Assembly (NCBI RefSeq): GCF_900141855.1
Contig: NZ_FQYU01000004.1
Span: 62,001-126,000, forward strand
Source: Pseudozobellia thermophila
GTDB taxonomy: Bacteria; Bacteroidota; Bacteroidia; Flavobacteriales; Flavobacteriaceae
Direction: 5' to 3'
DNA length: 64,000 nucleotides
Positions 24,829 through 43,241 of this stretch are shown here, piece by piece (the first letter of the stretch is position 1; every line of letters starts with the position of its first letter). The notes under the pieces were generated by a model. The model saw nothing but the letters and a program-made list of their open reading frames with translations. It was not told the DNA's origin and did not search any database. The translations under genes and the position numbers were made by a program.

Positions 24829-27800
24829 ATGAAACTAAAACTGCTATTTTTTCTGTTGACCTTTGTCCCCCTTGGCCTTTTGGCCCAGGGACAAATAACG
24901 GGTACGGTTACCTCCGCTGATGACGGAATGCCCTTGCCCGGGGCCTCTGTGGTCGTTAAGGGAACCACAACGGGTACCACTACCGATTTTGACGGTATCT
25001 ATACCTTGAACGACGTACCGCCCGACGCTACCTTGGTCTTCAGCTATATCGGATTCACCAGAACCGAGATTCCCGTAAACAACCAATCGACCATAGATAT
25101 TGCCATGCAGGCCGATGCCCAACAATTGGAGGAAGTGGTGCTAACGGGATACGCCACGGAACGCAAGGCCGATTTGACGGGTGCGGTCACTGTGGTTGAA
25201 CTGGGTCCCGTCGAAGGGCAAAGCATGAGTTCGGGTAGTGCCGTACAGTCTTTGCAAGGCCGTGTGCCCGGACTGTTCATTGAAAAATCGGGCGACCCAA
25301 CGGGAAACAGCAACAACATCCTTATCAGGGGGGTGACCACCCTGGGAAATAACGATCCCCTGTTTGTAATCGACGGGGTGCCCACGGTACGCCAAGAAGT
25401 ATTTTCAAGCCTTAACCCCAGTGTCATCGAGTCGGTACAGGTTCTTAAAGATGCATCGGCATCCTCCATTTATGGTGCACGTGCCGGTAACGGTGTAATT
25501 ATAGTTACCACTAAAAACCGGGCCCGAAGCGCCGATGGCGAAAAATTGAGCATTTCGATCAATTCCAACGTGTCCGTACTATCCGAAAAGCAACAACGCT
25601 ACGATATGCTGAACGCACAACAAAGGGGCGAAATACTCTGGCGTGCATCGGTAAACGACGGCGCCGACCCCGCAGGAGGCTACGGCGAGATCTATAACTT
25701 CGACTGGAACAATGATTTTGCCAACCCCGTATTGAACAGCGTTTCGGTACAACCCTTTGTTGGTGGCGACAATACCGTACCCGTCGGGGATACCGATTGG
25801 CAGGAAGAAACCTATGAAACGGGCTATGTACTCAACAACGATATAAGCATTTCGGGGGGATCGGAGAAGTCCTTTCACCTGTTGAACGTGGGGTATTTGA
25901 AAAATACGGGGATACTCAAATACACCAATTACGAAAGGTATTCGGCAAAACTGAATTCGAACTTCAACCTATTCGACAATAAGCTCCGTATCGGTATGAA
26001 CACGCAGTTCTACACATCCGATGAGACACTGGCCTCCCCCGATGTGGGTAGTGCCCCCACCCCTAGCCTGGCGATCACACTGGCCCCCACCATTCCCCTT
26101 AGGGATGCCAATGGCGAGTTTGCCGGACCGATCGGCGCGGGATATTCTGACAGGAACAACCCCGTATTGATGCAATACCTCAACCGATGGGACAATACCG
26201 AACGAACCACTATATTCGGTAACCTGTATGCCGAACTCGACATCCTAAAGAACCTCACCTTTAGAACGAGTATAGGGCTCGATTACAACGACTATAAAAG
26301 CAAGGACATCGAACCCACCGTAAACAACGGTTTTATTACCCGGGGCAATAACAGGTTGATCATGGACACCAATAAGTTCACGAGCCTGGTCTTTACCAAC
26401 ACCCTGAACTACCAATTGGAGTTGAACGATCACCGCTTCGGACTACTTGTAGGTACGGAATCGGTAAAGAACGATTTTGATTCCGTATTGGCACAGGCCG
26501 ACGGCTTTGCCGTTGAATCGGAGAATTACTTTGTTCTAGGTGCCGCTACGGGGGCACGAACATCGAACGGAAGTTCAAGTGGCAGTAGGTTGCTATCGCA
26601 GTTTGCCAAACTCAACTACGCCTTCGGCGACAAGTATTTGGCCTCGGTTACCGTTCGCCGCGATGGTTCTTCGAGGTTTGGTCCCGACAACAGATACGGT
26701 ATCTTCCCTGCCTTTACCTTGGGTTGGAGAATAAGCCAGGAAAACTTTTTAAAGGAAAGTGAACTGATCAGCAACCTAAAACTAAGGGCCGGCTACGGTG
26801 AAGTGGGCAATCAGAATATCGGCGACCTGGCCCGGTTCGGAATCTATGAAGCCCGGTACGGCGAAAACCAATTAACGGCCACGGGTGAGGATAATTTCTT
26901 CAATACCTTCTATAATGTGGGTACGGCCTACGACCTTAACGGAAACAATAGCGGTACGCTCCCCTCCGGTTTCGTTTCTACCCAAGCGGCCAATCCGGCC
27001 TTAAAATGGGAAACGACCAAAGAGATCAATATCGGGGTCGACTTCGGCTTGTTCAACAACGCCGTAATAGGTTCCTTTGATTATTTTACCCGCGATACCG
27101 ACGATATCCTGACCACTCCCCCGATCGCCTCGGTAATTGGCGAAGGGCAGCAAAGGGTATTGAACGGGGCCTCGACAACAACCAAGGGATGGGAACTTTC
27201 CTTAGGCTATGCCAAAACCTTCGAGAGCGGACTTTCCTTTGGCATATCGACCAATTTCGGCGCCTTTAAGGACGAGATCACCTTCTTGCCCGAAGAGGTA
27301 CGGGCAGCTTTCCCCGGAACGGCGGAAAACTCGATAGTGGGCCAATCGCAATTTTCGATTTTCGGTTACCAAACGGACGGTCTTTTCCAAAGCCAGGCCG
27401 ATGTCGATAGTTCGGCCGACCAAGTCGGTGCCCGACCAGGAGGCCTAAAGTTTAAGGATCTGAACGGCGACGGTACAATCGACGCCGACGACCGCGATTT
27501 TATCGGAAACACCTTGCCCGACCTGGAATACGGTGTACGTATCGACCTTGCCTATAAAAACTTTGACTTTTCGGTCTTCGGATCCGGGGTGGCCGGAAGA
27601 ATTGGCCAGGACCCCTATATTTTTTGGAACAATTTTGCATCGGGTAGGGAAAACGGAGGTATAGGCCTATTGGATGCGTGGACACCCTCGAATACCGATA
27701 CCGATATCCCCGCCCTGTCCCTCGCCTTGAACGACACCCGAATTTCCGATTATCTGTACAGGAACAACTCTTATTTCAAGATCCGTAACCTTCAGATAGG

Positions 27801-27987
27801 CTATTCACTGCCTCAAGACCTTATTGGCAAATTAGGGGGCATGACCGGTCTACGCATCTATTTTCAAGGGGAAAACCTACTGTGGTTCACGCCCAACGAT
27901 TATATAGGAGCCGATCCGGAGCGCACCGATGTTAACCGAATTCCCGTTCCCACGGTACTCTCTTTGGGCCTTAACTTAAACTTTTAA
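24829..27987 (+). CDS. SusC-family TonB-dependent outer-membrane transporter
   Basis: The 1052 aa protein has a signal peptide, a carboxypeptidase-regulatory-like domain (QITGTVTSADDGMPLPGASVVVKGT), a TonB-interaction segment near EEVVLTGYATERKADLTGAV, a plug domain (RVPGLFIEKSGDPTGNSNNI, LFVIDGVP) and a 22-strand barrel ending LSLGLNLNF. It would import fructo-oligosaccharides across the outer membrane using TonB energy, paired with the SusD protein 16 bases downstream. Fructan specificity is inferred from the neighbouring GH32, fructokinase and sensor genes. Confidence 0.95.
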   Translation: MKLKLLFFLLTFVPLGLLAQGQITGTVTSADDGMPLPGASVVVKGTTTGTTTDFDGIYTLNDVPPDATLVFSYIGFTRTEIPVNNQSTIDIAMQADAQQLEEVVLTGYATERKADLTGAVTVVELGPVEGQSMSSGSAVQSLQGRVPGLFIEKSGDPTGNSNNILIRGVTTLGNNDPLFVIDGVPTVRQEVFSSLNPSVIESVQVLKDASASSIYGARAGNGVIIVTTKNRARSADGEKLSISINSNVSVLSEKQQRYDMLNAQQRGEILWRASVNDGADPAGGYGEIYNFDWNNDFANPVLNSVSVQPFVGGDNTVPVGDTDWQEETYETGYVLNNDISISGGSEKSFHLLNVGYLKNTGILKYTNYERYSAKLNSNFNLFDNKLRIGMNTQFYTSDETLASPDVGSAPTPSLAITLAPTIPLRDANGEFAGPIGAGYSDRNNPVLMQYLNRWDNTERTTIFGNLYAELDILKNLTFRTSIGLDYNDYKSKDIEPTVNNGFITRGNNRLIMDTNKFTSLVFTNTLNYQLELNDHRFGLLVGTESVKNDFDSVLAQADGFAVESENYFVLGAATGARTSNGSSSGSRLLSQFAKLNYAFGDKYLASVTVRRDGSSRFGPDNRYGIFPAFTLGWRISQENFLKESELISNLKLRAGYGEVGNQNIGDLARFGIYEARYGENQLTATGEDNFFNTFYNVGTAYDLNGNNSGTLPSGFVSTQAANPALKWETTKEINIGVDFGLFNNAVIGSFDYFTRDTDDILTTPPIASVIGEGQQRVLNGASTTTKGWELSLGYAKTFESGLSFGISTNFGAFKDEITFLPEEVRAAFPGTAENSIVGQSQFSIFGYQTDGLFQSQADVDSSADQVGARPGGLKFKDLNGDGTIDADDRDFIGNTLPDLEYGVRIDLAYKNFDFSVFGSGVAGRIGQDPYIFWNNFASGRENGGIGLLDAWTPSNTDTDIPALSLALNDTRISDYLYRNNSYFKIRNLQIGYSLPQDLIGKLGGMTGLRIYFQGENLLWFTPNDYIGADPERTDVNRIPVPTVLSLGLNLNF

Positions 27988-28003
27988 CAAAAAACCGACA
28001 ATC

Positions 28004-29749
28004 ATGAAATACAATAGATTATTAATATTCGGGATGATGGCTTTGTTGGCCTTTGCATCCTGTTCCGACGATTTTTTGGAATACGAACCTGAAGGTGTGC
28101 TGTCCAATGAAAACGTGGCAACCGCCGAAAATGCGGAATCTTTGGTAGTGGCGGCCTACGCAGGCATTGCCAATGACGATATGATAGGTCCCCTTACCCA
28201 CATGTGGGTATACGGTAGCGTTCGCTCCGATGATGCCTATAAAGGCGGAGGAGGCCGTGGCGATGTCGACATCGTCGACAAGTACGAGCAATACAACCTT
28301 ACCGAGGCCGACAACGGTACCGATTGGATGGGGCCAAGAACATGGACCAACTATTACGCGGCCATTTCAAGGGCAAATTTTGCCTTGTCGGTCATCAACG
28401 AAATTCCCGATGCCGAATATCCCGAAAAGACCGTCCGTCAAGCGGAACTCCGGTTTTTAAGGGCGCATTCGCACTTTATCCTAAAAACCCTGTTCAAAAA
28501 GATTCCCTATATCACAGAGGACTTGACATCGGAAGAAATCGGAAAGGTCTCGAACGACCTGCCTAACGACGAGCTGTGGAACAAAATAGCCGATGACTTC
28601 CTTTACGCCTACGACAACCTACCGCAAACGCAAGATCAGCCCGGGAGGGCCGATAAGAACGCGGCGGCGGCCTATCTGGCCAAGCTTAGGCTGTACCAGG
28701 CCTACGAGCAGAACGAAACCCACCAGGTGGTCAACATCAACACCGCACGGTTGGAAGAGGTAATCGACTATGCCGACGATGTAACGGCCAGTTTGGAAGC
28801 CGATTACGGCAACAACTTTTTAGATGGTTTCGACAACGGACCCGAATCCATTTGGGCCGCACAGTTTTCCATCAACGACGGAACCATCGTAAGCCGTGTA
28901 AGTTTTGTGACCGGACTAAATTCCCCGCATGGTACGGGACTATACGGTTGTTGTGGCTTTCATTTGGCCAGCCAGAATATGGTGAACGCCTTTAAGACCG
29001 ATGCCAACGGACTTCCGTTACTCGACACCTTTAACAATGAGGATATCTTCGATACCCTGGCAGAGGACGGAACCGTCGTTCCGGAAGCCGGACTGACCGT
29101 CGACCCCAGAATCGACCATACGGTAGGGATTCCCGGAAGGCCGTTCAAATACCGAAACACGGTAAACGAAGCCGGTGACATGATCTACAACTTTAGCTGG
29201 GCGCGTGATCCCGGAGTGTACGGCTATTTTGGAAACATGAAGGAGCAACAGGCCCCCGATTGCTCCTGCTACGTAAAGGAGGGGCCCTTTATAGGCACTT
29301 CAAAGAATGTTGATTTTATTCGCTATGCCGATGTATTGTTGTTCAAGGCCGAGGCCCTGATCCAACTGGACAGATGGGACGAGGCGCTACCCATAATCAA
29401 CCAAATAAGAACACGTGCCGCCGCAAGTACGTCGAGACCCTTGGCTGCCGGCGCCACCGACATCTACAACATCGGCACCTACGACTCCTTTCCCTCCAAG
29501 GAATTTGCCCTAAAAGCCTTAAAGTTCGAAAGAAGGTTGGAATTCGGAATGGAAGGTCCCCGTTTCTTCGACCTGGTCCGTTGGGGCGAGGCTGCAGAGG
29601 TACTCAATGCCTACCTAGCCGAGGAAAAGACAAAGAGGGATTTCTTGACCAACGCACAATTTACCGCGGGAAGGGACGAGTATTACCCCATACCCCAACG
29701 TGAAATAGACTTTACCGGAGGTGTCTATGTTCAAAATCCGGGGTACTAA
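28004..29749 (+). CDS. SusD-family surface glycan-binding lipoprotein
   Basis: The 581 aa protein has a lipobox (LAFASC, then SDDFLEYEPEG) and the RagB/SusD fold. Family marks are the N-terminal SCSDDFLE...P motif, ALRFLRAHSHF-like (AELRFLRAHSHFILK), YADVLLFKAEALIQL in the TPR part, and the C-terminal ALKFERRLEFGMEGPRFFDLVRWG. SusD proteins sit over the SusC barrel and capture glycan. It is the last gene before an internal terminator. Confidence 0.95.
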   Translation: MKYNRLLIFGMMALLAFASCSDDFLEYEPEGVLSNENVATAENAESLVVAAYAGIANDDMIGPLTHMWVYGSVRSDDAYKGGGGRGDVDIVDKYEQYNLTEADNGTDWMGPRTWTNYYAAISRANFALSVINEIPDAEYPEKTVRQAELRFLRAHSHFILKTLFKKIPYITEDLTSEEIGKVSNDLPNDELWNKIADDFLYAYDNLPQTQDQPGRADKNAAAAYLAKLRLYQAYEQNETHQVVNINTARLEEVIDYADDVTASLEADYGNNFLDGFDNGPESIWAAQFSINDGTIVSRVSFVTGLNSPHGTGLYGCCGFHLASQNMVNAFKTDANGLPLLDTFNNEDIFDTLAEDGTVVPEAGLTVDPRIDHTVGIPGRPFKYRNTVNEAGDMIYNFSWARDPGVYGYFGNMKEQQAPDCSCYVKEGPFIGTSKNVDFIRYADVLLFKAEALIQLDRWDEALPIINQIRTRAAASTSRPLAAGATDIYNIGTYDSFPSKEFALKALKFERRLEFGMEGPRFFDLVRWGEAAEVLNAYLAEEKTKRDFLTNAQFTAGRDEYYPIPQREIDFTGGVYVQNPGY

Positions 29750-29797
29750 AAGGGATAGAAAAATAGAGTAGTGTACTATCTGTTAGTTTGTTAGTTC

Positions 29798-29833
29798 AGC
29801 ACGGGAGAGAAAGGTTTCTTTCCCGTGCTTTTT
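29798..29833 (+). terminator. internal terminator between susD and the fructokinase gene
   Basis: AGCACGGGA (29798-29806) pairs with TCCCGTGCT (29821-29829) with a 14-base loop and a following T-run. It would reduce read-through from susD into the kinase gene, or the kinase gene may have its own promoter. Confidence 0.85.
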
Positions 29834-29852
29834 AAATTAAATGTAGTTCGAT

Positions 29853-30743
29853 ATGGACAAAAAAATAAATGCAGTTTGTTTCGGAGAGGTGCTTTTTGAT
29901 CATTTTCCAACACACTCCAAAATTGGGGGTGCCCCACTGAACGTCTCGCTTAGGCTAACCTCATATGGGGTTGAAACGGCCTTGATAAGCAGCGTAGGTC
30001 AAGACCCGGAAGGCAAAAAGATCATAAACTATCTTACCAAGTTGGGCGTACACACAAAGGGAATACACCTACAGGAAAAATACCCCACGGGTGCCGTTAA
30101 CGTAATCTTGAACGACAAGGGGGCCGCCTCCTACGATATTGCCTATCCGGTAGCTTGGGACAAGATCCTCGCCAACGAATACCAAAAAGCATTGGTCAAG
30201 GCATCCGACTTCTTCGTTTTCGGTAGTCTGGCCTGTCGCGATTCGGTTTCCAGGACCACGCTTGCCTCCTTGTTAAAAATGGCGGCCTATAAGGTTTTTG
30301 ATGTCAACCTGCGCCCGCCCCACTATACCCCTACCTTATTGGTCGATTTAATGGAAGAATCCGACTTTATCAAGTTCAACGACGACGAGCTTTTTGAAAT
30401 AGCGGGGCATATCGGATCAAAATACAATTCAATGGAACAGACCATAGCCTATGTGGCGGCAAAAACCAAGACCGGTACCATTTGTGTGACCAAAGGTGCC
30501 TATGGGGCGGTGTTGTATCGAAACGAAACCTTATACTACAATAGCGGTTACCGTATCAAGGTCTTGGATACCGTAGGTTCGGGCGACTCCTTTCTGGCAT
30601 CCGTGCTGTACAAACTTTTTAATGGTGAAAGTCCCCAAGCGGCCCTTGATTACGGATGTGCGGTGGGGGCCATGGTCGCAAAAAGCGAAGGGGCCAACCC
30701 CATCCTGACCAAATTAAAGATCGAGAAGTTTATGAACCCATAA
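29853..30743 (+). CDS. PfkB-family sugar kinase, probable fructokinase
   Basis: The 296 aa cytoplasmic kinase belongs to the PfkB/ribokinase family. Seen are the N-terminal sugar-binding CFGEVLFDHFPTHSKIGGAPLNVSLRL with the family's di-Gly, and the C-terminal DTVGSGDSFLASVL, in which the Asp is the catalytic base and GSGD the anion hole. Fructokinases make fructose 6-phosphate from fructose and ATP. The assignment to fructose rests on the adjacent GH32, transporter and fructose-sensor-like gene. Confidence 0.9.
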   Translation: MDKKINAVCFGEVLFDHFPTHSKIGGAPLNVSLRLTSYGVETALISSVGQDPEGKKIINYLTKLGVHTKGIHLQEKYPTGAVNVILNDKGAASYDIAYPVAWDKILANEYQKALVKASDFFVFGSLACRDSVSRTTLASLLKMAAYKVFDVNLRPPHYTPTLLVDLMEESDFIKFNDDELFEIAGHIGSKYNSMEQTIAYVAAKTKTGTICVTKGAYGAVLYRNETLYYNSGYRIKVLDTVGSGDSFLASVLYKLFNGESPQAALDYGCAVGAMVAKSEGANPILTKLKIEKFMNP

Positions 30744-33515: not shown

Positions 33516-33545
33516 ACGCAAATACAAAACAGAAAATAGCAAATG

Positions 33546-33586
33546 TAAAACGGTTTTAAAATCCCCCTTTTCCCATCTTAGTTTTG
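33546..33586 (+). promoter_or_regulatory. promoter with palindrome before the four-gene unknown cluster
   Basis: TAGTTTTG (33579-33586) is a full match to TAnnTTTG. A palindrome TAAAAC-G-GTTTTA (33546-33558) lies 20 bases upstream, over the -33 region, in place of a clear TTG. It could be an operator. Confidence 0.5.
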
Positions 33587-33622
33587 AGGTAAATAAACAA
33601 ATAACCCTTAAAACAAAAGATC

Positions 33623-34033
33623 ATGGGATTAAAAGAAAAAAGATTTACCCAAACATTTCAAGAAGAACAATTTCCCCAATTAAAAGCCCAAATAGTTGCG
33701 GCCGCAGGCTTCGATGTTCCGCTTTCCATTGAATGGGAAACCTTATTCGAAGACCGTTTTTTACATCTTTATAACGACTCGTACCCCAAAATATATTTCT
33801 TGCCCCTTATCGAAGCCTTCAAAGCCATTACCGCCGACGAAATGGGGAAAGAAGCTTTGGCCGAAAGTTTAAGGGAAGTACACATTATCAACACAAAAGA
33901 CCATCACAACCCTAAAAATGCCTATTCATTTGCAGAAGGCATTCTAACCGTTGACCATAGCCCCATACTCAATGCTGACAACGTAGAAGAGAGGGTAACG
34001 GTGTTGACCGATCTATTGGAAAGCAAGCTTTAA
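33623..34033 (+). CDS. unknown protein, first copy of a domain shared by three successive genes
   Basis: The 136 aa soluble protein begins MGLKEKRFTQTFQEEQFPQL and contains FPKIYF-like YPKIYFLPLIEAFKAITADEMG, followed by a hairpin-like FAEGILTVDHSPILNADNVEERV. The whole length aligns with residues 1-135 of the product at 34756, for example MGLKEKR, PKIYF.PLI.AFKAI..DEMG and DHSP.[IL]NADNVE. No catalytic motif, signal peptide or membrane segment is present. I have seen hypothetical proteins of this type but know no function. It is the first gene of a four-gene unit. Confidence 0.75.
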   Translation: MGLKEKRFTQTFQEEQFPQLKAQIVAAAGFDVPLSIEWETLFEDRFLHLYNDSYPKIYFLPLIEAFKAITADEMGKEALAESLREVHIINTKDHHNPKNAYSFAEGILTVDHSPILNADNVEERVTVLTDLLESKL

Positions 34034-34090
34034 ACTTATTCCTGTTAGAGCTTCATTACGCATTGATATTCGATTACAACACTTCTTGTT

Positions 34091-34744
34091 ATGACAAATA
34101 CACCCTACTATGACACCTTTGTGGCGCAAACGCCCGAACAGGTTTTACAAAGCGTCCATAAAAATGAAAAACCTGTTCTTATAGGTGTTTCCCTTAGCAA
34201 CGGAAACTACTTGGAGGGCATTGTGCTCGACATTAAAGAAGCGAATAACCAAAAATCGGTCTGTCTGCTATCGTCCGATGAGCAGGTATCGTTTTTCAAC
34301 TTGCATAGTCTGGTATCCATCACGGTAAAACAGCCCAAAAAAATGGCCGTGGCCCTATCTAAAGGGACCATTAGCAGACCCTTGGACCCAGAAAATGAAA
34401 ACCTTACCGTATTGCAGCTGAAACGTTGGTTGCAGACCGAAAAGCCACAATTGGGAAATCAGATCAAGGAATTGAACATAGACCAACTTCCCCTTAATGA
34501 ATTGAACAATAGGTTGAACATTAAGGATGTGTTCAAGGCATTAAAAGAGGTCGTGTCACAAATCACCATAGATGAAATAGGTCAAAAAGCCTGGCAGGCC
34601 ATCGATACTATCGTCCTGCAACAGGCAGATGCACTAAGTATTAATGTTCAAGCTACGACACTTACCATTTCATTGGCGATCGACAGGGCATTGCCCAAAG
34701 AACTGTCCAAAATCTTAGAAGAAAAATTATTACAACAACTATAA
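34091..34744 (+). CDS. unknown protein with Sm-like N-terminus and the shared domain
   Basis: The 217 aa protein has two regions. Residues about 25-80 (KPVLIGVSLSNGNYLEGIVL then VCLLSSDEQVSFFNLHSLVSITV) resemble a small Sm-like beta barrel, a weak inference. The C-terminal part from about residue 140 (VFKALKEVVSQITIDEIGQKAW, SLAIDRALPKELSKILEEKL) resembles the second half of the domain in the genes on both sides, where the corresponding segment is AFKAITADEMGKEAL and a final helix. It is 57 bases after the first gene and 11 before the third. Confidence 0.7.
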   Translation: MTNTPYYDTFVAQTPEQVLQSVHKNEKPVLIGVSLSNGNYLEGIVLDIKEANNQKSVCLLSSDEQVSFFNLHSLVSITVKQPKKMAVALSKGTISRPLDPENENLTVLQLKRWLQTEKPQLGNQIKELNIDQLPLNELNNRLNIKDVFKALKEVVSQITIDEIGQKAWQAIDTIVLQQADALSINVQATTLTISLAIDRALPKELSKILEEKLLQQL

Positions 34745-34755
34745 AAACCAAAAAT

Positions 34756-35964
34756 ATGGGCCTTAAAGAAAAAAGAATAATCAAAGCCTTTCAAAACGAA
34801 CAATATCCCGCTTTGGAAGCGGAGATCAACAAAGCAGCAGGTTACGAAGTTCCCATGGATATTAAGTGGGACACCCTAATGGAAGACCGCTTTTCACACA
34901 TATACCACAACACGTTTCCTAAAATATACTTCCAGCCCTTGATCCAAGCGTTTAAGGCGATCTGTATCGATGAAATGGGGGTTGAACTTTTAAAGGCGGG
35001 ATTAAAAAATGTGATCATTGTAAATGAAAACAATGAGCATAGTCTCGGAAAGGCCATCACTTTTGAAGAGGGGGTGCTGAAAATTGACCATAGTCCCGTT
35101 ATCAATGCCGATAATGTAGAAGACAAGGCAAATCGTATTATCGAGTTGTTGGAAAACAAACTGGAGGAATTTGCCAAAACAACCACGAATAATACCCCGG
35201 CAGCGGCCGCACCGACCGTTTCAGAAACACCAACAACCCCGGAAAAAACGAAAACACCGCAAAATCAACAGGAACAAGCCACCCCACTTCCCAACGTCTC
35301 CATGGCGGAACTGTACGATCAATCTTTTGCTCTGGCTTGCGAAAAGCAGGAAATTTTTGGGGAGATGGTAAAAGGCCTGAACTGGAGCTGCGATATGCTC
35401 GAAGGTAAATTAACCTATGGTGACGACAAGGTTTTTGACATTCAGGTTATCGGGACGTACTCAGAGAACGAAAAAAGCTGGTTATGGGCCTGGGCCAACA
35501 ACCAAAGCGGAATTCCCGAAACATTCCTTCAATCATCCTTGGCAATGAGGGACTTGGGAACAAGGCATCAATTTCAGGACCTAACCACTCCGAAACTGCA
35601 AATGGACACTGATCCCGGCTCGTATTTTTCCGTTATTGCCGTAGGCGTTTTACAAGACAGTTGTTATGTACCCTTAACTTTTAAAGGCCTAAAGGTATAT
35701 GTGACCGTACGGTCTAAAGAAGTGGACAGCAAGGCAAGAACCGCCCCTGCATTGATCTGTTCCCATTTCACCAACCTTGCGGCAAGCTTTCGGTTTCCCC
35801 ATAAATACTGTCTGCAACATTACTTGACCGCTAAAGGATACCAAGTGGAAAACTGCGGTAATAACATTTTGGCCAAAAATGGGGAAGATCAGATTCTAGG
35901 CATTTTCGACCTAAAGGGAAACCTCATGAAAATTTCAAATTCAAAAACAGCCGTTCAGGCTTAA
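34756..35964 (+). CDS. two-domain protein: shared domain plus DUF6882-like domain
   Basis: The 402 aa protein has the shared domain at residues 1-135 (MGLKEKRIIKAFQNEQYPAL, FPKIYFQPLIQAFKAICIDEMG, DHSPVINADNVEDKA). A Thr/Pro/Gln-rich linker follows at about 136-180. The C-terminal domain, about 185-400, looks like DUF6882: FDIQVIGTYSENEKSWLWAWANNQSGIP is its characteristic stretch. DUF6882 has no known function. The protein lacks export or membrane signals and so should act in the cytoplasm. Its stop is 12 bases before the metallopeptidase gene. Confidence 0.78.
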   Translation: MGLKEKRIIKAFQNEQYPALEAEINKAAGYEVPMDIKWDTLMEDRFSHIYHNTFPKIYFQPLIQAFKAICIDEMGVELLKAGLKNVIIVNENNEHSLGKAITFEEGVLKIDHSPVINADNVEDKANRIIELLENKLEEFAKTTTNNTPAAAAPTVSETPTTPEKTKTPQNQQEQATPLPNVSMAELYDQSFALACEKQEIFGEMVKGLNWSCDMLEGKLTYGDDKVFDIQVIGTYSENEKSWLWAWANNQSGIPETFLQSSLAMRDLGTRHQFQDLTTPKLQMDTDPGSYFSVIAVGVLQDSCYVPLTFKGLKVYVTVRSKEVDSKARTAPALICSHFTNLAASFRFPHKYCLQHYLTAKGYQVENCGNNILAKNGEDQILGIFDLKGNLMKISNSKTAVQA

Positions 35965-35976
35965 AAAAACAATACT

Positions 35977-37467
35977 ATGTCATACACATCAACCACCTTG
36001 GCGGATTTGCAAAAAGAACATGAAGCCGCCATTACTGCGGCCCAAGAAGAGATGTTGCAAAATTTAAACGAGGCACAGGCATCCGGAGACCTGCACAGAA
36101 TACAGGAAGTAAGTGTTTCATTTCAAAAAACAACCACAAAATTGGCCGATGACTATACCAAACGCATCGAAGAGATCAACGCCTTGAACGAAAAGACGAC
36201 TACTGAAAAAGTGGCCGATATCTATACCGATAAAAGAGCTGGAATAAATCTGAACCACTTGGTCTATGACGGCGATAGGGACTATGTGATTGAGTTTCAA
36301 AACAACGAATTGATACAACAGACCTTGCAAAAGGTCAACGAAACCAACGGTAAGTTCAAATCGAGAAAGCATTTGTTAAAATCCAGTTTAAGGTTGACCA
36401 AAACCTTGGCCCCCATGCTCCACGAAATCGGGGAACACTGCAAGGAGATTTTAAGACTAAAGGCCGACATTGAATTTTTCGTCTACCAGAGCGACCAATT
36501 CAATGCCTCTTGCTATCCACCGGATGACAATAGACTTTATATCATTTTGTCTTCGGGAATGTTGGAGCGTTTTTCAAAAGAGGAATTGACCTTTGTGATC
36601 GGTCATGAAATCGGCCATGTACTTTTTGAACATTTTGACTACCCTGTACGTCAGATCTTGGATATAGGCCAAAATGACCTAGCCCCCATACATGCCATGA
36701 AATTGTATGCCTGGCACAGAAATGCCGAAATTAGTGCCGATAGGGTCGGCTTGCTTTGCTGCCAAGATTTTGAAACCGCCGGCCGTACCTTCTTTAAACT
36801 ATCTTCTGGGGTAACCACGGATTCGCTGGATTTTCAACTAAACGCTTACATAGAGCAATTTGTAGATTTGGAAGAAGCCTTGAACGATGCCAACCACGAC
36901 CCATCGGATTGGTACAGTAGCCACCCTTTCAGTCCTTTACGGATCAAGGCCTTGGAACTTTTTAACAAGAGCGAAACCTATGCCTCTTTTAACGACAGTA
37001 TTAATGGAGAGATCAGCGAAGAGGCCATGGAACTCGAAATTAAGCGCATCATGTCGCTGATGGAGCCCGAAAACCTGGAAGAAAATGATGAGCATTCGGA
37101 AAAAATACAGCGCTTTATGTTCTTGGGGGGCTACTTGATATCAAATGCCGATGGCGTGGTTGACGAATCCGAGATCCAAGCATTGAGCAGTATTGTACTG
37201 CCCAACGTTTTTGCCAATTGCATGATGACAATCAAGGGGCTTACCCAAGACGAGATGATACAGGAAGTGCAACAACTGTCAAAGGATTTGGACCTGGTGC
37301 TCTCGGTGATGCAAAAGTTGAACATTCTCAGGGACCTATCGATCATATCGTACGCCGATGGGCAGATAGACGACAGTGAAGTAAACGTACTCTATAACCT
37401 GGCCCGGCTCTTGCGTATCAACACCGATTTTATTGATCGCGTAATTAGCGATGCACAGGGAGTTTAG
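35977..37467 (+). CDS. M48-family zinc metallopeptidase with TerB-like C-terminus
   Basis: The 496 aa protein has a helical N-terminus (1-80) and an M48 peptidase core with HEIGH at 210-214. The Glu in NAEISADR (Glu251) is the likely third zinc ligand. The C-terminal part (about 370-490) has two TerB-like repeats, FLGGYLISNADGVVDESEI and LSIISYADGQIDDSEV, whose acidic loops resemble metal-binding sites of tellurite-resistance TerB proteins. No transmembrane helices are visible, unlike HtpX-type M48 proteins, so it is probably cytosolic. It is the last gene of the cluster, directly before a terminator. Its target is unknown. Confidence 0.85.
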   Translation: MSYTSTTLADLQKEHEAAITAAQEEMLQNLNEAQASGDLHRIQEVSVSFQKTTTKLADDYTKRIEEINALNEKTTTEKVADIYTDKRAGINLNHLVYDGDRDYVIEFQNNELIQQTLQKVNETNGKFKSRKHLLKSSLRLTKTLAPMLHEIGEHCKEILRLKADIEFFVYQSDQFNASCYPPDDNRLYIILSSGMLERFSKEELTFVIGHEIGHVLFEHFDYPVRQILDIGQNDLAPIHAMKLYAWHRNAEISADRVGLLCCQDFETAGRTFFKLSSGVTTDSLDFQLNAYIEQFVDLEEALNDANHDPSDWYSSHPFSPLRIKALELFNKSETYASFNDSINGEISEEAMELEIKRIMSLMEPENLEENDEHSEKIQRFMFLGGYLISNADGVVDESEIQALSSIVLPNVFANCMMTIKGLTQDEMIQEVQQLSKDLDLVLSVMQKLNILRDLSIISYADGQIDDSEVNVLYNLARLLRINTDFIDRVISDAQGV

Positions 37468-37491
37468 ATTCTAAAATTTTTATAAGACCTT

Positions 37492-37524
37492 AAAAAAAAG
37501 GGGAACAATTTATGTTCCCTTTTT
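37492..37524 (+). terminator. intrinsic terminator after the M48 gene
   Basis: GGGAACA (37501-37507) pairs with TGTTCCC (37513-37519), extended by A and T runs on both sides. It closes the four-gene unit. Confidence 0.88.
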
Positions 37525-37917: not shown

Positions 37918-39504
37918 ATGAAAGACAAAACATTAAAAAAGGTAGGGATTGTAGTTGGGGCGCTTACATTATTCACCGCTTGCAGCAGTGATGATAACAG
38001 CGATTTGACAACAACATCCAATGATGGAACCACTACGACGACAGAAAGTATTACCATTACGGACACAAACGCTACGGGGACAGCCCAAGGGGATACCGAC
38101 AACACGGGTGCCGATGAAGACGACCTTGTTGAAAATGCTACTTTCGAGAACACCGTAGAAATTGTATTTTCCAATACCTCGGCCACCATTACAAACCCCG
38201 TTCCCGACGATGTGGTCATTACACAAGACGGTGCCGACGTGACCGTTAATTCCTCCATATCCGGGGTGGCCTACGAAGTATCGGGCACAACAACGGATGG
38301 CATGCTTAAAATTTATAGCGACAAAAAATTCAAACTATCCCTAAGCGATTTGAGCATTACCAATGCCGATGGTCCCGCCATCAATATCCAATCATCAAAA
38401 ACCATTTTTGTGGTATTGGAGGGTACGAACAACTTGACCGATGCATCCAGTTACACCAATATCCCCGATGATGAGGATGCCAAAGCAACATTTTTTAGTG
38501 AAGGGCAATTGGTTTTTAGTGGTTCGGGAGCTTTAAATGTAGCAGGAAACTACAAGCACGGTATCACAAGTGACGACTACGTTAGGGTGCTCAGCGGAAC
38601 GATTACGGTTACCGAAGCAGCATCCGATGCCATACATACCAACGATTACATCATTGTAGATGGGGGTACCTTAAACTTAACGGCCGATAGCGACGGAATG
38701 GACTGTGAAGAAGGCTATATAATTATCAACGACGGCCTATTTGACATAAATGTGGTCGATGATGGAATCGTAGCCTCGTACGATATTGACGAGGAAGATG
38801 AACCGGACGATTCCATTACGCCCAATGTAACCATAAACGGAGGCGATTTTGTGATAAATACCTCTGAGGGCGAAGGAATCGAAGCAAAAGGGATAATGAC
38901 CATTAATGACGGTACCCTAAACATCAATGCCTATGATGATGGCCTTAATGCCGGTGGAATTTTATACATCAATGGAGGAAACAACTATGTTTATAGCACG
39001 CTCAACGATGCCATTGACAGTAATTCGGGAATCACCGTTACAGGTGGTACGACCATTGCCATAGCCGTTAGAACCGATGAGCCTGACGGTAGTTTTGATT
39101 GTGATGACGATTCGTTCAAAATAACCGGAGGAACCATTTTAGGCCTGGGGTTGAATACTTCTTTTCCAACTGAAAGCGAAAGCACGCAAAACTCGGTGAT
39201 TTTTGATGGGGTAAGTGCCAATCAACTATTAAACATTCAATCGGAAGAGGGTACTGAAGTCCTTACCTATGAAGTACCGAACACGGTAAGAACGATCATT
39301 TATTCGAATGCAAAAATGGAATCCGGCGAAACATACAAAATTTACACCGGGGGAAGTGTGAGTGATGGCACTGAAGTAAACGGATTATATACCTCCGGTA
39401 CCTATAGCGGAGGAACATATACCGGTGATTCGTTCTCCATCAACAGCACGGTTACACAAATTGGGGGCGAATTAGGGCCTACAGGTGAACATGGAGGTAG
39501 ATAA
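37918..39504 (+). CDS. Cthe_2159-like carbohydrate-binding domain lipoprotein
   Basis: The 528 aa protein has a lipobox (LTLFTAC, then SSDDNSD) and a Thr/Asp-rich linker. A long beta-helix-like body follows, with turns such as ITVTEAASDAIHTNDYIIVDGGTLNLTADSDGMDCEEGYIIINDG, quoted here only as separate short motifs SDAIHTND, DGGTLNL and SDGMDC. This repeat style marks the Cthe_2159 family (carbohydrate-binding domain-containing, formerly DUF4353). Its founding member binds cellulose and acidic polysaccharide and coordinates calcium. The C-terminus is Gly-rich (GPTGEHGGR). No glycan-degrading gene is adjacent, so the target is unknown. Confidence 0.87.
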   Translation: MKDKTLKKVGIVVGALTLFTACSSDDNSDLTTTSNDGTTTTTESITITDTNATGTAQGDTDNTGADEDDLVENATFENTVEIVFSNTSATITNPVPDDVVITQDGADVTVNSSISGVAYEVSGTTTDGMLKIYSDKKFKLSLSDLSITNADGPAINIQSSKTIFVVLEGTNNLTDASSYTNIPDDEDAKATFFSEGQLVFSGSGALNVAGNYKHGITSDDYVRVLSGTITVTEAASDAIHTNDYIIVDGGTLNLTADSDGMDCEEGYIIINDGLFDINVVDDGIVASYDIDEEDEPDDSITPNVTINGGDFVINTSEGEGIEAKGIMTINDGTLNINAYDDGLNAGGILYINGGNNYVYSTLNDAIDSNSGITVTGGTTIAIAVRTDEPDGSFDCDDDSFKITGGTILGLGLNTSFPTESESTQNSVIFDGVSANQLLNIQSEEGTEVLTYEVPNTVRTIIYSNAKMESGETYKIYTGGSVSDGTEVNGLYTSGTYSGGTYTGDSFSINSTVTQIGGELGPTGEHGGR

Positions 39505-39656
39505 ACTCTAGAATTGGCAATGGTCCGCCATAATGTTTTACCAGGTAAAATCACATAAAGAAATCAAAAGACCTCTTCTAAACGTGAATAAAACCTGGAT
39601 AAACAACAAGGGCTGAAGTCACGTTTAAAATAGCCCTTGACAAGTATGGTAGGATA

Positions 39657-39702
39657 GAAAAAAGCTTACAGATTCAAGAAATTGAAGTTGTAAGCTTTTT
39701 TT
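39657..39702. terminator. bidirectional terminator between the lipoprotein and PhoD-like genes
   Basis: AAGCTTACA (39662-39670) pairs with TGTAAGCTT (39689-39697) around an 18-base loop. An A-run on the left and a T-run on the right allow use by both convergent genes. Confidence 0.85.
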
Positions 39703-39865
39703 GATACCGCCTGATTTTGAAGTAACCCCTTTAGGCAAAAGTAAATGGCCCAAACCGGGCGGATCAAAAACGAAATAAATATCCGTTCTATTGAAACAGG
39801 GACATAGAGCCTTTCGGATGTCATCCTTCCGTTTTACATTTCCCAAAAATAGAGGCTACATAGGC

Positions 39866-41338
39866 CTAGCTGGCAAAAGCTTCCTCGTGCACTACCTTCC
39901 CGTCGACATCGCGATGTTTGAACACAAGTTGGGGCTTGGAATCGGTATGCATCACATCGACCGTCAAATAGCCGCCTTTTACGCGAAGAAACCGGTGTTC
40001 GGGCCTGACATTGTCCTGGTTCCAGCCGCCGGCGTGACTATCGGACCCGGCTCCCGAACAAAACTCCCATAAGTTGCTGTCTTTGATATGGCTGACATAC
40101 TGCCAATGCCGGTCACCGTTGCACATGTAGATGTTATCGTGTCGGTTGACAAATTCCCTAATGATATCTCCCTCGTATTGGTAGGCCTTGTTCGAGTGGT
40201 TGTCGTTCTTTCCCTTGGGCCTGTCGGGCCCTATGATCGGGGAAGCCGATATCAAAACCTTGAAGGTGGCATCGGAGCTGTCGATCGTTTTAAACAGCCA
40301 TTCCCTCTGTTCCTTGCCCAAAATATGCTTGTCCGGTCCGTCGGGGTCGGTGTTTTTGCTGCGGTAGTTTCTGCCTTCCAACAACCAAATTTGAAGGTCT
40401 TTGCCCCATCGCACCGTCTTATAGGTCTTGGGGTTCGACGGAAACTGTTCCTTGTCGAAAATTTCAATCCCCCTATCAAAGGATACCGCACCATATCGGG
40501 TTCCGGGATAGGCGTCGTCCTTTAAGGTGTCGTGGTCGTCCTTCATAAAATAACAGGTGGTGTTGCTGTAGAAATCCCTTTGGTAGGGAAGGGCGAATAT
40601 GCGGTCCCATTTAAAACGCATCAAGCGCTCCGTAAAGGCATAGGGGTTCCGTTTGTCGTAGTATTCTATATCTCCGGTATGGACCAAAAAGTCAAGGTTG
40701 TCCCTCTTCATGGCGGGGTATATGCGGTGGCCGTCCTCATGGTCCCTTCGATTGAAATCGTGGCAACTCACCACGGCAAAGGATACATCCTTGGGCCTTG
40801 TGGCCTCGGGAGGCGTTAAAAATGCCCCCCGGATACTGTTTTGGCCTTTAGCCCCCTTCGTTTTTCTCGATTTTAGCTCGAGAATGTAACGGGTATCGGG
40901 CAAAAGTCCGGTCAATTTCCATTGTCGGGTATAGTTTTTGGAGGCATCGACATCGGCCCATTCCAAAGTATGCCTGTCGGCCGGATCGTTCTCGGGATAA
41001 TAGCTTAATTGCACCTGTCCGGTGGTACCAGGGCAGGCTCCTTCCATATCCTCTAGCCGTAAATTCGAAGGTATTTGCGACTTTTCAAGGATGGAAACAT
41101 CACTTAAATCGGCAAAAGACTTCTGCTGCTCCTTGGTGAGCTCGATAAAGGGAACACCCTGGGCATTCAATTCGGGATTCTTGGTAAGGCGGGTCCAAAT
41201 CGCGACCGAATCTTGGTCGGCCCATCCATTGTGTACCCCGTTTCCGAAATAGGGAACCCTTTCCGTGTCAATAAAAGGCGGCAAGACCATTGCCGTGGAT
41301 GCGACCGCCGTATTTTTAATGAATTTACGTCTTTTCAT
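39866..41338 (-). CDS. PhoD-like alkaline phosphatase with Tat signal
   Basis: The roughly 490 aa protein starts MKRRKFIKNTAVASTAMVLPP, a twin-arginine export signal, so it folds in the cytoplasm and is exported. The PhoD-like metallophosphatase core has FAVVSCHDF, FLVHTGDIEYYD, FMKDDHDTLKDDA and a late CNGDRHWQY. These are the metal-binding Asp/His sets of the PhoD family (phosphodiesterase/alkaline phosphatase). An N-terminal beta domain (QVQLSYYPE, TRQWKLTGLLPDTRYILELK) is also typical. I place the start at 41338; the upstream extension to 41419 lacks export features. Expected role is phosphate release from organic phosphate esters in the periplasm or outside the cell. Confidence 0.9.
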   Translation of the reverse strand: MKRRKFIKNTAVASTAMVLPPFIDTERVPYFGNGVHNGWADQDSVAIWTRLTKNPELNAQGVPFIELTKEQQKSFADLSDVSILEKSQIPSNLRLEDMEGACPGTTGQVQLSYYPENDPADRHTLEWADVDASKNYTRQWKLTGLLPDTRYILELKSRKTKGAKGQNSIRGAFLTPPEATRPKDVSFAVVSCHDFNRRDHEDGHRIYPAMKRDNLDFLVHTGDIEYYDKRNPYAFTERLMRFKWDRIFALPYQRDFYSNTTCYFMKDDHDTLKDDAYPGTRYGAVSFDRGIEIFDKEQFPSNPKTYKTVRWGKDLQIWLLEGRNYRSKNTDPDGPDKHILGKEQREWLFKTIDSSDATFKVLISASPIIGPDRPKGKNDNHSNKAYQYEGDIIREFVNRHDNIYMCNGDRHWQYVSHIKDSNLWEFCSGAGSDSHAGGWNQDNVRPEHRFLRVKGGYLTVDVMHTDSKPQLVFKHRDVDGKVVHEEAFAS

Positions 41339-41460
41339 CGGTATGCCTTGTCTTCTGGTTCTTTTGGCCTTTAAAGTAACTAAAAAAAACCAATCTGTCC
41401 GAACGCCTACCAACAACAAAACCCCGTCTTTTCGAACACGGCAAAATGTGCCGGCAGAGG

Positions 41461-42918
41461 TTACCTCACTTGTATGACAACCCTTCGATACGAAACCAGG
41501 TTAGGACTGCCCATGTCCTTTACTTCGACAACGAGGTGCACATCGCCCTTGGGACATTGCGGGGGTATTTTCACCCGTGTGCTTGACTGGTCAACGTGTT
41601 CGATATCAACCTTTGAAACCGAGATTTCGGTATATTGCCACCAATAAAAACCAAGTTCGTCACCATCGGGATCGTAAGATTTACCCACATCGATTTCGAT
41701 GGTACTTCCCGGCCTGGCCCTTAAGCGGACCATGTCTTTGCCATCATCGTTTTCAACTATGGCCACTGGATTGTGGTTGGCTTCGGTATACGGCAAGAGG
41801 TTCCATTGCATGCGTGCCGCAAAGTCGTTCTGATAGGCTTCTCGCCACCTTGCCACCGTCCATTTTCGTCGCACTCCCGTATCATCGGTACCCGACCAAT
41901 GATCATCTTCGGCATCTACGTAATACGTTTGGGCCTGCTTGCGATACCGTCCGCCCCAACCGCCCCATTCGGGCCTTTCGGGATTGTTCAGACCGTTTGG
42001 GTAAACAAAGAACCAAGAGGGGGTATCCCCTTCCTTTACGCCCTTTCCGTTTCTTGGGCTCCCTGGGTTCTGGTGGGTGTCGGAGGGGTAAAGTTCCCCT
42101 AAGGGACCCCATGCATTGATGTTTTCCCCAATCCACTTTTCGTCGTTGAGTTGTTCGATACCGGGCCTGACCAAGGGAAGTGGCCTATCTCCTCCCCTGG
42201 AATCGTTTTGATACATCCCCCTAAAGCCAGCGTCCATAATGTGGCTCGTCAAAGGCCCCGATTCGACATACCTGATTCTTGGGAAATTTTCGCGGATCCA
42301 TTGTCCCGTCCCCTTAGGGTGAATGCCGTTCAACCCGTCTTGGTCCGATATGGCAAAAACCCGCAGCTTATCAACAAAGCGATCGGTCCTTTTCCGGGTC
42401 CGCGTACTTTTTACGTCAAGGAGGGCCTGGGCCAGATCATGGGCCCCGCCCCAGATCGCAACGTAGAGCGGCTCATTGGAGGCATCGACCGTTTGTACGA
42501 TGTGTCGGGAGCCATCGGTAACCTTGCCCGGTTCTAAATTTTCCGCCCCGCGATCGACCTCCCCCCCTTTCACAACTCCTTTTAAGGATTCGGCGGTAGG
42601 ATAGTTGGGGTCGTGGAGCAAAAGATTGTTCCGCACCTTGCCGTAGGCATCGATAACCTCGTGAACGATATCGGTACGGATCCTATGGTTATAGCCCTTT
42701 CTGGGGATGTTGTCGGAAGTGGCTATGATGCCCTCGATACGAAACGCATTGGCATACACCAACAAACGCACGAGGGATTGCTGATCATCGGGATCCCCTC
42801 CGATATCGGTCAATACCAACAATCTTGGCTTTTTATTCCCCTGGGCTGCAAGGGCCATGTTCAGTAAGAGGGCCAATGCCAAGGTAAGAAGGCTGCGCAT
42901 GATAACCGTGCTACTCAT
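41461..42918 (-). CDS. secreted DUF1593 protein, nucleoside-hydrolase-like (Sde182 type)
   Basis: The roughly 485 aa protein has a signal peptide (MRSLLTLALALLLNMALAAQ) and a DUF1593 domain beginning LLVLTDIGGDPDDQQSLVRLL. The DxxxDPDD cluster corresponds to the calcium-binding motif of nucleoside hydrolases. A C-terminal beta-sandwich (about 390-485) includes SYDPDGDELGFYWWQY. Sde182 of Saccharophagus was named a cellulose-binding protein of this family, but the reaction is undefined. The start is either 42918 (MSSTVIMRS) or 42900 (MRSLL). It is 122 bases upstream of, and in the same direction as, the PhoD-like gene. Confidence 0.85.
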   Translation of the reverse strand: MSSTVIMRSLLTLALALLLNMALAAQGNKKPRLLVLTDIGGDPDDQQSLVRLLVYANAFRIEGIIATSDNIPRKGYNHRIRTDIVHEVIDAYGKVRNNLLLHDPNYPTAESLKGVVKGGEVDRGAENLEPGKVTDGSRHIVQTVDASNEPLYVAIWGGAHDLAQALLDVKSTRTRKRTDRFVDKLRVFAISDQDGLNGIHPKGTGQWIRENFPRIRYVESGPLTSHIMDAGFRGMYQNDSRGGDRPLPLVRPGIEQLNDEKWIGENINAWGPLGELYPSDTHQNPGSPRNGKGVKEGDTPSWFFVYPNGLNNPERPEWGGWGGRYRKQAQTYYVDAEDDHWSGTDDTGVRRKWTVARWREAYQNDFAARMQWNLLPYTEANHNPVAIVENDDGKDMVRLRARPGSTIEIDVGKSYDPDGDELGFYWWQYTEISVSKVDIEHVDQSSTRVKIPPQCPKGDVHLVVEVKDMGSPNLVSYRRVVIQVR

Positions 42919-43241
42919 AACCATTAAAATTACAATGGGGGCAATACCCAATTTTAACGAAGATACACCCTTGATGCCATTCCTTAACCCAGGCCTAGTG
43001 CTTTTTACCCGTATTCCTGGCCCTTTTTGGCCATACCCGTTCGTCTTATTCTTATAAATGGCAATTCGATGGTCTTGATGCGATTGGGAGAAAAAGATGA
43101 TGTATCGAGTCAATCGGCAAAACCTTTAACAACTATATTGCTTTGTTTTTTAATCCCGGTTAATATGGGCAAGGGACCAATTTAAAGCAATAGTCCTTGT
43201 CTCCCTGTTTATAGTCAATCAAAAAAACTTAAGAACAACCT
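42919..43241. other. 323 bp divergent promoter region
   Basis: The gap separates the minus-strand DUF1593 gene from the plus-strand PAS kinase. TTGCTTTG near 43138-43145 is one mismatch from a -7 box for the kinase gene. No gene or RNA is recognised. Confidence 0.3.

Follow-up and report, generated by a model that had tools for sequence, protein, structure and literature searches.

Background

What do four closely spaced genes do that lie just downstream of a TPR sensor kinase and a LytTR regulator in Pseudozobellia thermophila, when one small domain recurs in the first three and the fourth encodes a metallopeptidase? The window that we analysed is a stretch of 64,000 nucleotides (positions 62001-126000 of contig C16, in a genome of 5.04 Mb). 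A sequence-only reading of it had described these genes, called P1 to P4 here, as one unit, perhaps controlled by the kinase (P5) and the regulator (P6), and we infer, as it did, that they could form a sensing or assembly module. We present here what is conserved in this unit, what its proteins resemble, and which explanations of its role the evidence favours (Table 1).

Table 1. Features of the P1-P4 unit and of its regulatory genes (positions in the window)
Feature	Position	Strand	Description
P5	30928..32778	+	TPR sensor kinase; lipobox-like N-terminus, one transmembrane segment, LytS-type His_kinase domain (PF06580)
P6	32778..33515	+	Response regulator with LytTR DNA-binding domain (Pfam LytTR 5e-20, Response_reg 3.4e-16)
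Proposed LytTR site	33519..33551	+	Direct repeats CAAATACAAAAC (33519-33530) and CAAATGTAAAAC (33540-33551), 21 bp start to start
Bacteroidetes -7 promoter box	33579..33586	+	TAGTTTTG; conserved in 14/15 loci at a near-fixed position
P1	33623..34033	+	136 aa; stand-alone copy of the repeated domain
P2	34091..34744	+	Predicted Sm/Hfq-like barrel (~residues 13-82) and diverged full copy of the P1 domain (~105-217); from hhalign, AlphaFold2 model and structure search
P3	34756..35964	+	P1-type domain (1-136), disordered linker (~142-178), DUF6882 (185-319), C-terminal alpha/beta part (~330-398)
P4	35977..37467	+	Soluble M48 metallopeptidase; HEIGH coded at 36604-36618, third-ligand motif EISAD; C-terminal TerB domain (residues 387-484)
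Terminator-like hairpin, then T run	37497..37523 (approx.)	+	-14.9 kcal/mol, z -2.58; recovered by a second analysis too

Results

Organisation and conservation of the unit

The gene positions and the spacings of 11-57 bases given in the sequence-only reading are reproduced here (the P1-P2, P2-P3 and P3-P4 gaps are 57, 11 and 12 bp), and so is its view of a single unit with one promoter and one terminator; the TAGTTTTG box precedes P1 and the hairpin follows P4. Hydropathy indicates no transmembrane segment in any of the four proteins. The flanking genes are ordinary carbohydrate genes: a SusC/SusD pair and a pfkB sugar kinase upstream (24829-30743; SusD assigned by sequence only), and a Cthe_2159 carbohydrate-binding protein, a PhoD phosphatase and a Sde182-type protein downstream (37918-43113).

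A search with P1 only yielded 12 loci in 85,000 species genomes, and further loci came from 249 genomes of the family; the nearest relatives of P1 are found in Maribacter (94 and 91%) and Zobellia (83%). Fifteen loci were counted as operon-type (the window, L019-L028, L029 and L030-L032), and since only P1 or a P1 profile served to collect them, the sample does not by design favour loci that also contain P2, P3 and P4. The order kinase, LytTR regulator, P1, P2, P3, P4 is found in 14 of these 15, so that the homologues of the four genes are indeed neighbours elsewhere, and the kinase-LytTR pair adjoins the unit in all 15, while the genes that flank the unit vary between species. The single exception, in Cellulophaga (L029), has the kinase, the regulator, P1 and a DUF6882 protein devoid of the P1 domain, with neither P2 nor P4 at the locus. 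In Algibacter lectus DSM 15365 (L024:10001-10411), P1 has a stop at codon 5 and the rest of the unit is intact, as would follow from a recent loss, from a start further downstream or from an error in the assembly.

A repeated domain absent from the libraries searched

P1 can be aligned over its whole length, without a gap, with residues 1-136 of P3 (54% identity, E 2e-55), in agreement with the sequence-only reading. That reading had also noticed a likeness between the C-terminal part of P2 and the second half of this domain; the likeness is real, but its extent was underestimated. Direct BLASTP detects the P1-type domain in P2 only marginally (E 0.002), and a direct profile comparison of P1 with the P2 of the operon loci covers 69 columns (hhalign 95%, E 3e-8). 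When divergent P2 proteins from other genomes are used as a bridge, 110 columns of the P1 family align with their C-termini (97.5%, E 6.5e-12), and the operon P2 aligns with these divergent P2 proteins over 109 columns (97.3%, E 2.4e-11), all these E-values being those of single comparisons. The profiles thus span nearly the whole domain, and homology to its second half only can be rejected.

The structure models lead to the same view. In the AlphaFold2 models of P3 (good, mean pLDDT 79) and P2 (moderate, 67.8, the remaining four of five predictions being below 50), residues 1-143 of the former and 107-216 of the latter have the same predicted order of elements (helix, strand, two helices, three strands, helix). 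The predicted topology of the domain appears to be common to P1, P2 and P3, and the unrelated folds that would have spoken against the proposal of a repeated domain are not seen.

Neither Pfam nor NCBIfam nor PADLOC has a family that covers the domain, its PHROG match is at chance level, and the PDB gave no clear structural match. The best chains in a PDB structure search are of the zincin type, at a Z of 6.7 that lies below the noise level of the tool, and P1 has no HExxH motif; these chains were not retained as a sign of a zincin-like identity. The TALE matches of the P1 profile in the PDB were likewise dismissed as repeat noise, no stretch being significant on its own. The P1 domain is thus an undescribed protein family at the core of the unit, without an entry in the libraries searched.

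A predicted Sm-like barrel in P2

The N-terminal part of P2 is predicted by AlphaFold2 to consist of a helix (H15-24) and five bent strands, and is likely to have an Sm-like fold, that is, a helix followed by a five-strand bent barrel. A structure search with this model retrieves Hfq chains (Foldseek E 7e-4, Z up to 9.4) together with the small barrels of WYL and YaeO/Rof proteins, the best matches being Hfq/Sm and WYL-type barrels, with Z of 8-9.6 over 60-77 residues. At the level of sequence profiles, SmD1 and LSm4 make up 13 of the 18 PDB matches of the barrel, all of them weak (E 0.06 to 1.3). The ROF profile is touched by 3 of 19 P2 proteins and the Hfq profile by one of 19 P2 relatives, at 0.02. 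To judge from its sequence, P2 lies outside Hfq: it does not reach the family profile, and the lysine of the YKHA motif is absent.

P3 and P4

The DUF6882-like domain that had been suspected in the third gene is present, residues 185-319 of P3 scoring 101.5 bits against a Pfam cut-off of 23.9; our literature search found no paper that names DUF6882. Among giant viruses, Cafeteria roenbergensis virus and klosneuviruses have uncharacterised proteins that resemble the model of P3 (window 35308-35712; Foldseek E down to 5e-6), probably via its DUF6882 part, to judge from the alignment length, as the search gives no range. At L086:6415-8807, DUF6882 is encoded by a gene of its own, which converges tail to tail on another His_kinase/LytTR pair.

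The fourth gene encodes a HEIGH metallopeptidase, as had been proposed (M48, 67.6 bits against a Pfam cut-off of 20.3), but the two TerB repeats of the sequence-only reading turn out to be one TerB domain (36.2 bits, cut-off 24.4) that holds two acidic ADGxxDxxE motifs. The motifs HE[IM]GH and E..AD (EISADR) and both acidic ADG motifs are kept in 14 P4 orthologues and in a 27%-identical relative from another family of the phylum. With its HExxH and downstream glutamate ligand motif, P4 is by sequence an M48 peptidase; it scores 25 bits against the 245 of the HtpX equivalog and has no hydrophobic segment, and so does not qualify as HtpX. We found no paper on an M48-TerB protease in the literature search. 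An M48-TerB protein from another family of the phylum (L084:7979-9301) stands in a different gene context without P1-P3, which indicates that the protease exists apart from the P1-P2 pair.

Regulation by the kinase-LytTR pair

P5 matches TPR_12 (5.5e-21) and His_kinase (1.1e-20) in Pfam, and has a hydrophobic N-terminus and one transmembrane segment at about residue 380 (hydropathy peak 2.56), its TPR domain being predicted to be periplasmic. In the aligned spacer of about 107 bp between the regulator gene and P1, all 15 loci have two direct repeats CnnnTnYAAAAC, which deviate slightly in the loci that are most distant; the repeats are spaced by 21 bp, or by 20 bp in L026 and L027, and the -7 box lies just downstream of them in 14 of the 15. 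A relaxed form of the repeat pair is found in at most 0.6% of shuffles per locus, a descriptive figure, since the pattern was drawn from the same alignment. The exact pattern occurs once in the 5-Mb genome (a single match in the window, at 33519-33551) and once in Zobellia, in both cases at this operon, with no occurrence in the reversed control.

In Flavobacterium the -7 consensus is TAnnTTTG, located at -12 to -5 (PMC9723704); the expected transcription start would thus be at about 33591, with the repeats near -66 and -45. The promoters controlled by the LytTR regulator AgrA have two direct repeats upstream, to which it binds (PMC4227749). With a His_kinase protein, a LytTR regulator and a candidate direct-repeat site upstream of the target promoter, P5 and P6 are by sequence a LytTR two-component system, and LytTR control of P1-P4, which the sequence-only reading had only surmised, is now well supported by sequence through the conserved repeats, the -7 box and the uniqueness of the exact pattern.

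An older P1-P2 core

Among the 249 family genomes, P1 is present in 11 and P2 in 10, all of the latter being among the former (p 5e-17), and P4 is present in four, each having both P1 and P2. In many other genomes, including some from another family of the phylum, divergent P1 and P2 are neighbours without P3 and P4. In a midpoint-rooted tree of the domain, all P2 copies form one clade (support 0.90), all P3 copies form one clade within P1 (support 0.91), and the P1 and P2 subgroups broadly mirror each other. This argues that P1 and P2 are an old pair and that P3 arose later, by the copying of P1 in front of DUF6882.

The pair has other partners. Seven operon loci encode a membrane-anchored protein of about 320 aa between P1 and P2, and three divergent loci encode one next to P1; the two sets are homologous to each other (hhalign 98.4%, E 5e-15). 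Two loci have a truncated form of this protein, and the genomes of the window and of Zobellia G001 lack it, the unit in the window having lost it. TPR kinases of other classes (HisKA_3 with a LuxR regulator, or HisKA) are encoded next to P1 or P2, or close to them, in L033, L036-L038, L105 and L109; this association of P1-P2 with TPR kinases is suggestive, given that such kinases are common in these genomes. At L106:10003-11685 and L108:8936-10648, P1 or P1-P2 is followed by a gene for an undescribed protein of about 565 aa, which may be a further addition to the core pair. TssD (Hcp)-like genes adjoin P2 at L036:8334-8726 and L038:9414-9812 (genomes G013 and G099), where they are the sole TssD matches; their product is perhaps a TssD-fold protein with another role.

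Discussion

We tentatively favour, as possible rather than probable, a dedicated stress-response operon in which the sensor pair induces a P1-P4 complex that controls the M48-TerB protease. The kinase P5 would relay a signal to P6, which would bind the two direct repeats that immediately precede the P1 promoter, thereby switching P1-P4 on. The soluble proteins P1, P2 and P3 would then assemble via their common domain, the Sm-like barrel of P2 probably adding ring formation or the binding of nucleic acid or peptides, and the DUF6882 module of P3 probably recognising the target. This complex would position or gate the zinc protease P4, in which the TerB domain may serve as a metal sensor or as the part that docks to the complex.

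The sequences compared give good support to the operon, to the relations between the domains, to the LytTR-type site and to the integrity of the protease motifs. Assembly through the common domain and control of P4 we infer from the paired duplication, the strict adjacency and the co-inheritance of these genes, and target recognition and the nature of the signal are conjectural. Several points count against the mechanism: P1-P2 mostly occur without P3 and P4, so that the protease should be dispensable for the core function, the membrane-anchored protein in the set of many relatives points to the envelope rather than to the cytosol alone, and the model of P2 is weak, with one good prediction in five. 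A broader scenario is, in our opinion, somewhat unlikely: the ancient P1-P2 pair would form a hetero-oligomeric, Sm-like scaffold that was coupled time and again to TPR two-component systems in Bacteroidota, and to which the Maribacter-Zobellia group added a DUF6882 reader and an M48-TerB protease, giving a signal-induced proteolytic machine.

The same observations can be read otherwise. P1-P2 could be a nucleic-acid-binding regulator, with a P2 ring that binds RNA or DNA, P1 as its partner, and P3 and P4 as later additions. The Hfq/Sm and WYL-type barrels at the top of the structural matches of P2, the predominance of SmD1 and LSm4 among its profile matches and the contacts with the ROF profile speak for this idea; we nevertheless regard it as unlikely, because every sequence match of P2 is below threshold (E 0.006 or worse), the YKHA lysine is not conserved, the model is of moderate confidence, and Sm-like barrels bind peptides and proteins too. 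By analogy with HtpX responses, one may also imagine an envelope-quality unit, in which the anchored partner would report the state of the envelope to cytosolic P1-P2 and P4 would degrade damaged or mislocalised proteins. The adjacency of the anchored protein to P1 in seven operon-type and three divergent loci, its homology between the two groups and the predicted periplasmic location of the kinase TPR domain are all in line with this, but the protein is missing from the genome of the window and from Zobellia G001 and truncated in two other loci, and P4, unlike HtpX, has no transmembrane segment; we regard this explanation, too, as unlikely.

Conflict contexts are familiar settings for TerB and for small repeated domains, and the distribution is patchy (P1 in 11 of 249 family genomes), as would suit a role in anti-phage defence or in another conflict, with the protease acting as effector. 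Against this, PADLOC (library from 2023) has no match for P1, P2 or P3, only a single weak one among 19 P2 relatives (PDC-S06, 0.0035) and only a weak capP match for the M48 part of P4 (0.011), no relative occurs in 2.9 million viral contigs, the neighbouring genes are ordinary metabolic ones, and two-component control would be atypical. The defence role that had been mentioned for such domains thus finds no support here, a conflict system seems quite doubtful, and a phage origin of the unit is rejected on the same viral contigs. Finally, a TssD-like gene between P1 and P2 in two divergent loci would suit an accessory of the Bacteroidetes type VI secretion system (iii), but two of the four full-unit genomes lack any TssD and carriers do not differ clearly from non-carriers (p 0.11), so that for the four-gene unit this idea is largely refuted and, in our opinion, highly improbable.

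Whichever role it has, the unit combines parts that are already known (M48, TerB, DUF6882, LytTR and the Sm fold) with the P1 domain family; neither this family, nor its fusion to a predicted Sm-like barrel, nor the combined unit was found in the libraries or papers searched. The case illustrates the growth of a domain family by duplication and fusion, from P1 to P2 early and from P1 to P3 later, and, in marine Flavobacteriaceae, it assigns to a TPR/LytTR pair what appears to be its only target, together with a precisely located candidate binding site. Direct tests of the signal, of the complex and of the protease thereby become feasible in cultured strains and, should the Sm-like barrel of P2 bind nucleic acid, an Sm-type protein would be added to this group.

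Comparison with known systems

The regulatory pair resembles LytS/LytTR systems such as AgrC/AgrA, in having a His_kinase protein, a LytTR regulator and two direct repeats upstream of a promoter, but differs from them by the TPR sensor domain of the kinase and by an exact site pattern found solely before this operon. P2 shares with Hfq/Sm-like proteins a predicted helix and five-strand barrel and, in the operon loci, the Sm1-like NG-xx-LEG signature; its barrel is, however, fused to an undescribed domain, and it neither reaches the Hfq profile nor conserves the RNA-binding motif. DUF6882 proteins are usually stand-alone and of about 250 aa, whereas in P3 a DUF6882 far above the cut-off, with similar predicted folds in giant viruses, is fused to the P1 domain. 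P4 has the conserved HExxH and downstream E..AD ligand motif of M48 peptidases (HtpX, LoiP, Oma1-like), but it is soluble, its N-terminal region is long, a TerB domain stands at its C-terminus, and its scores fall far short of all HtpX/LoiP equivalog cut-offs. None of TerC, TerD and TerE of the ter tellurite-resistance operon is present among the 11 window genes scanned (24.8 to 43.1 kb). In comparison with tellurite-resistance-type stress proteins, the TerB domain of P4 exceeds the Pfam cut-off and has both acidic motifs, but is fused to a protease.
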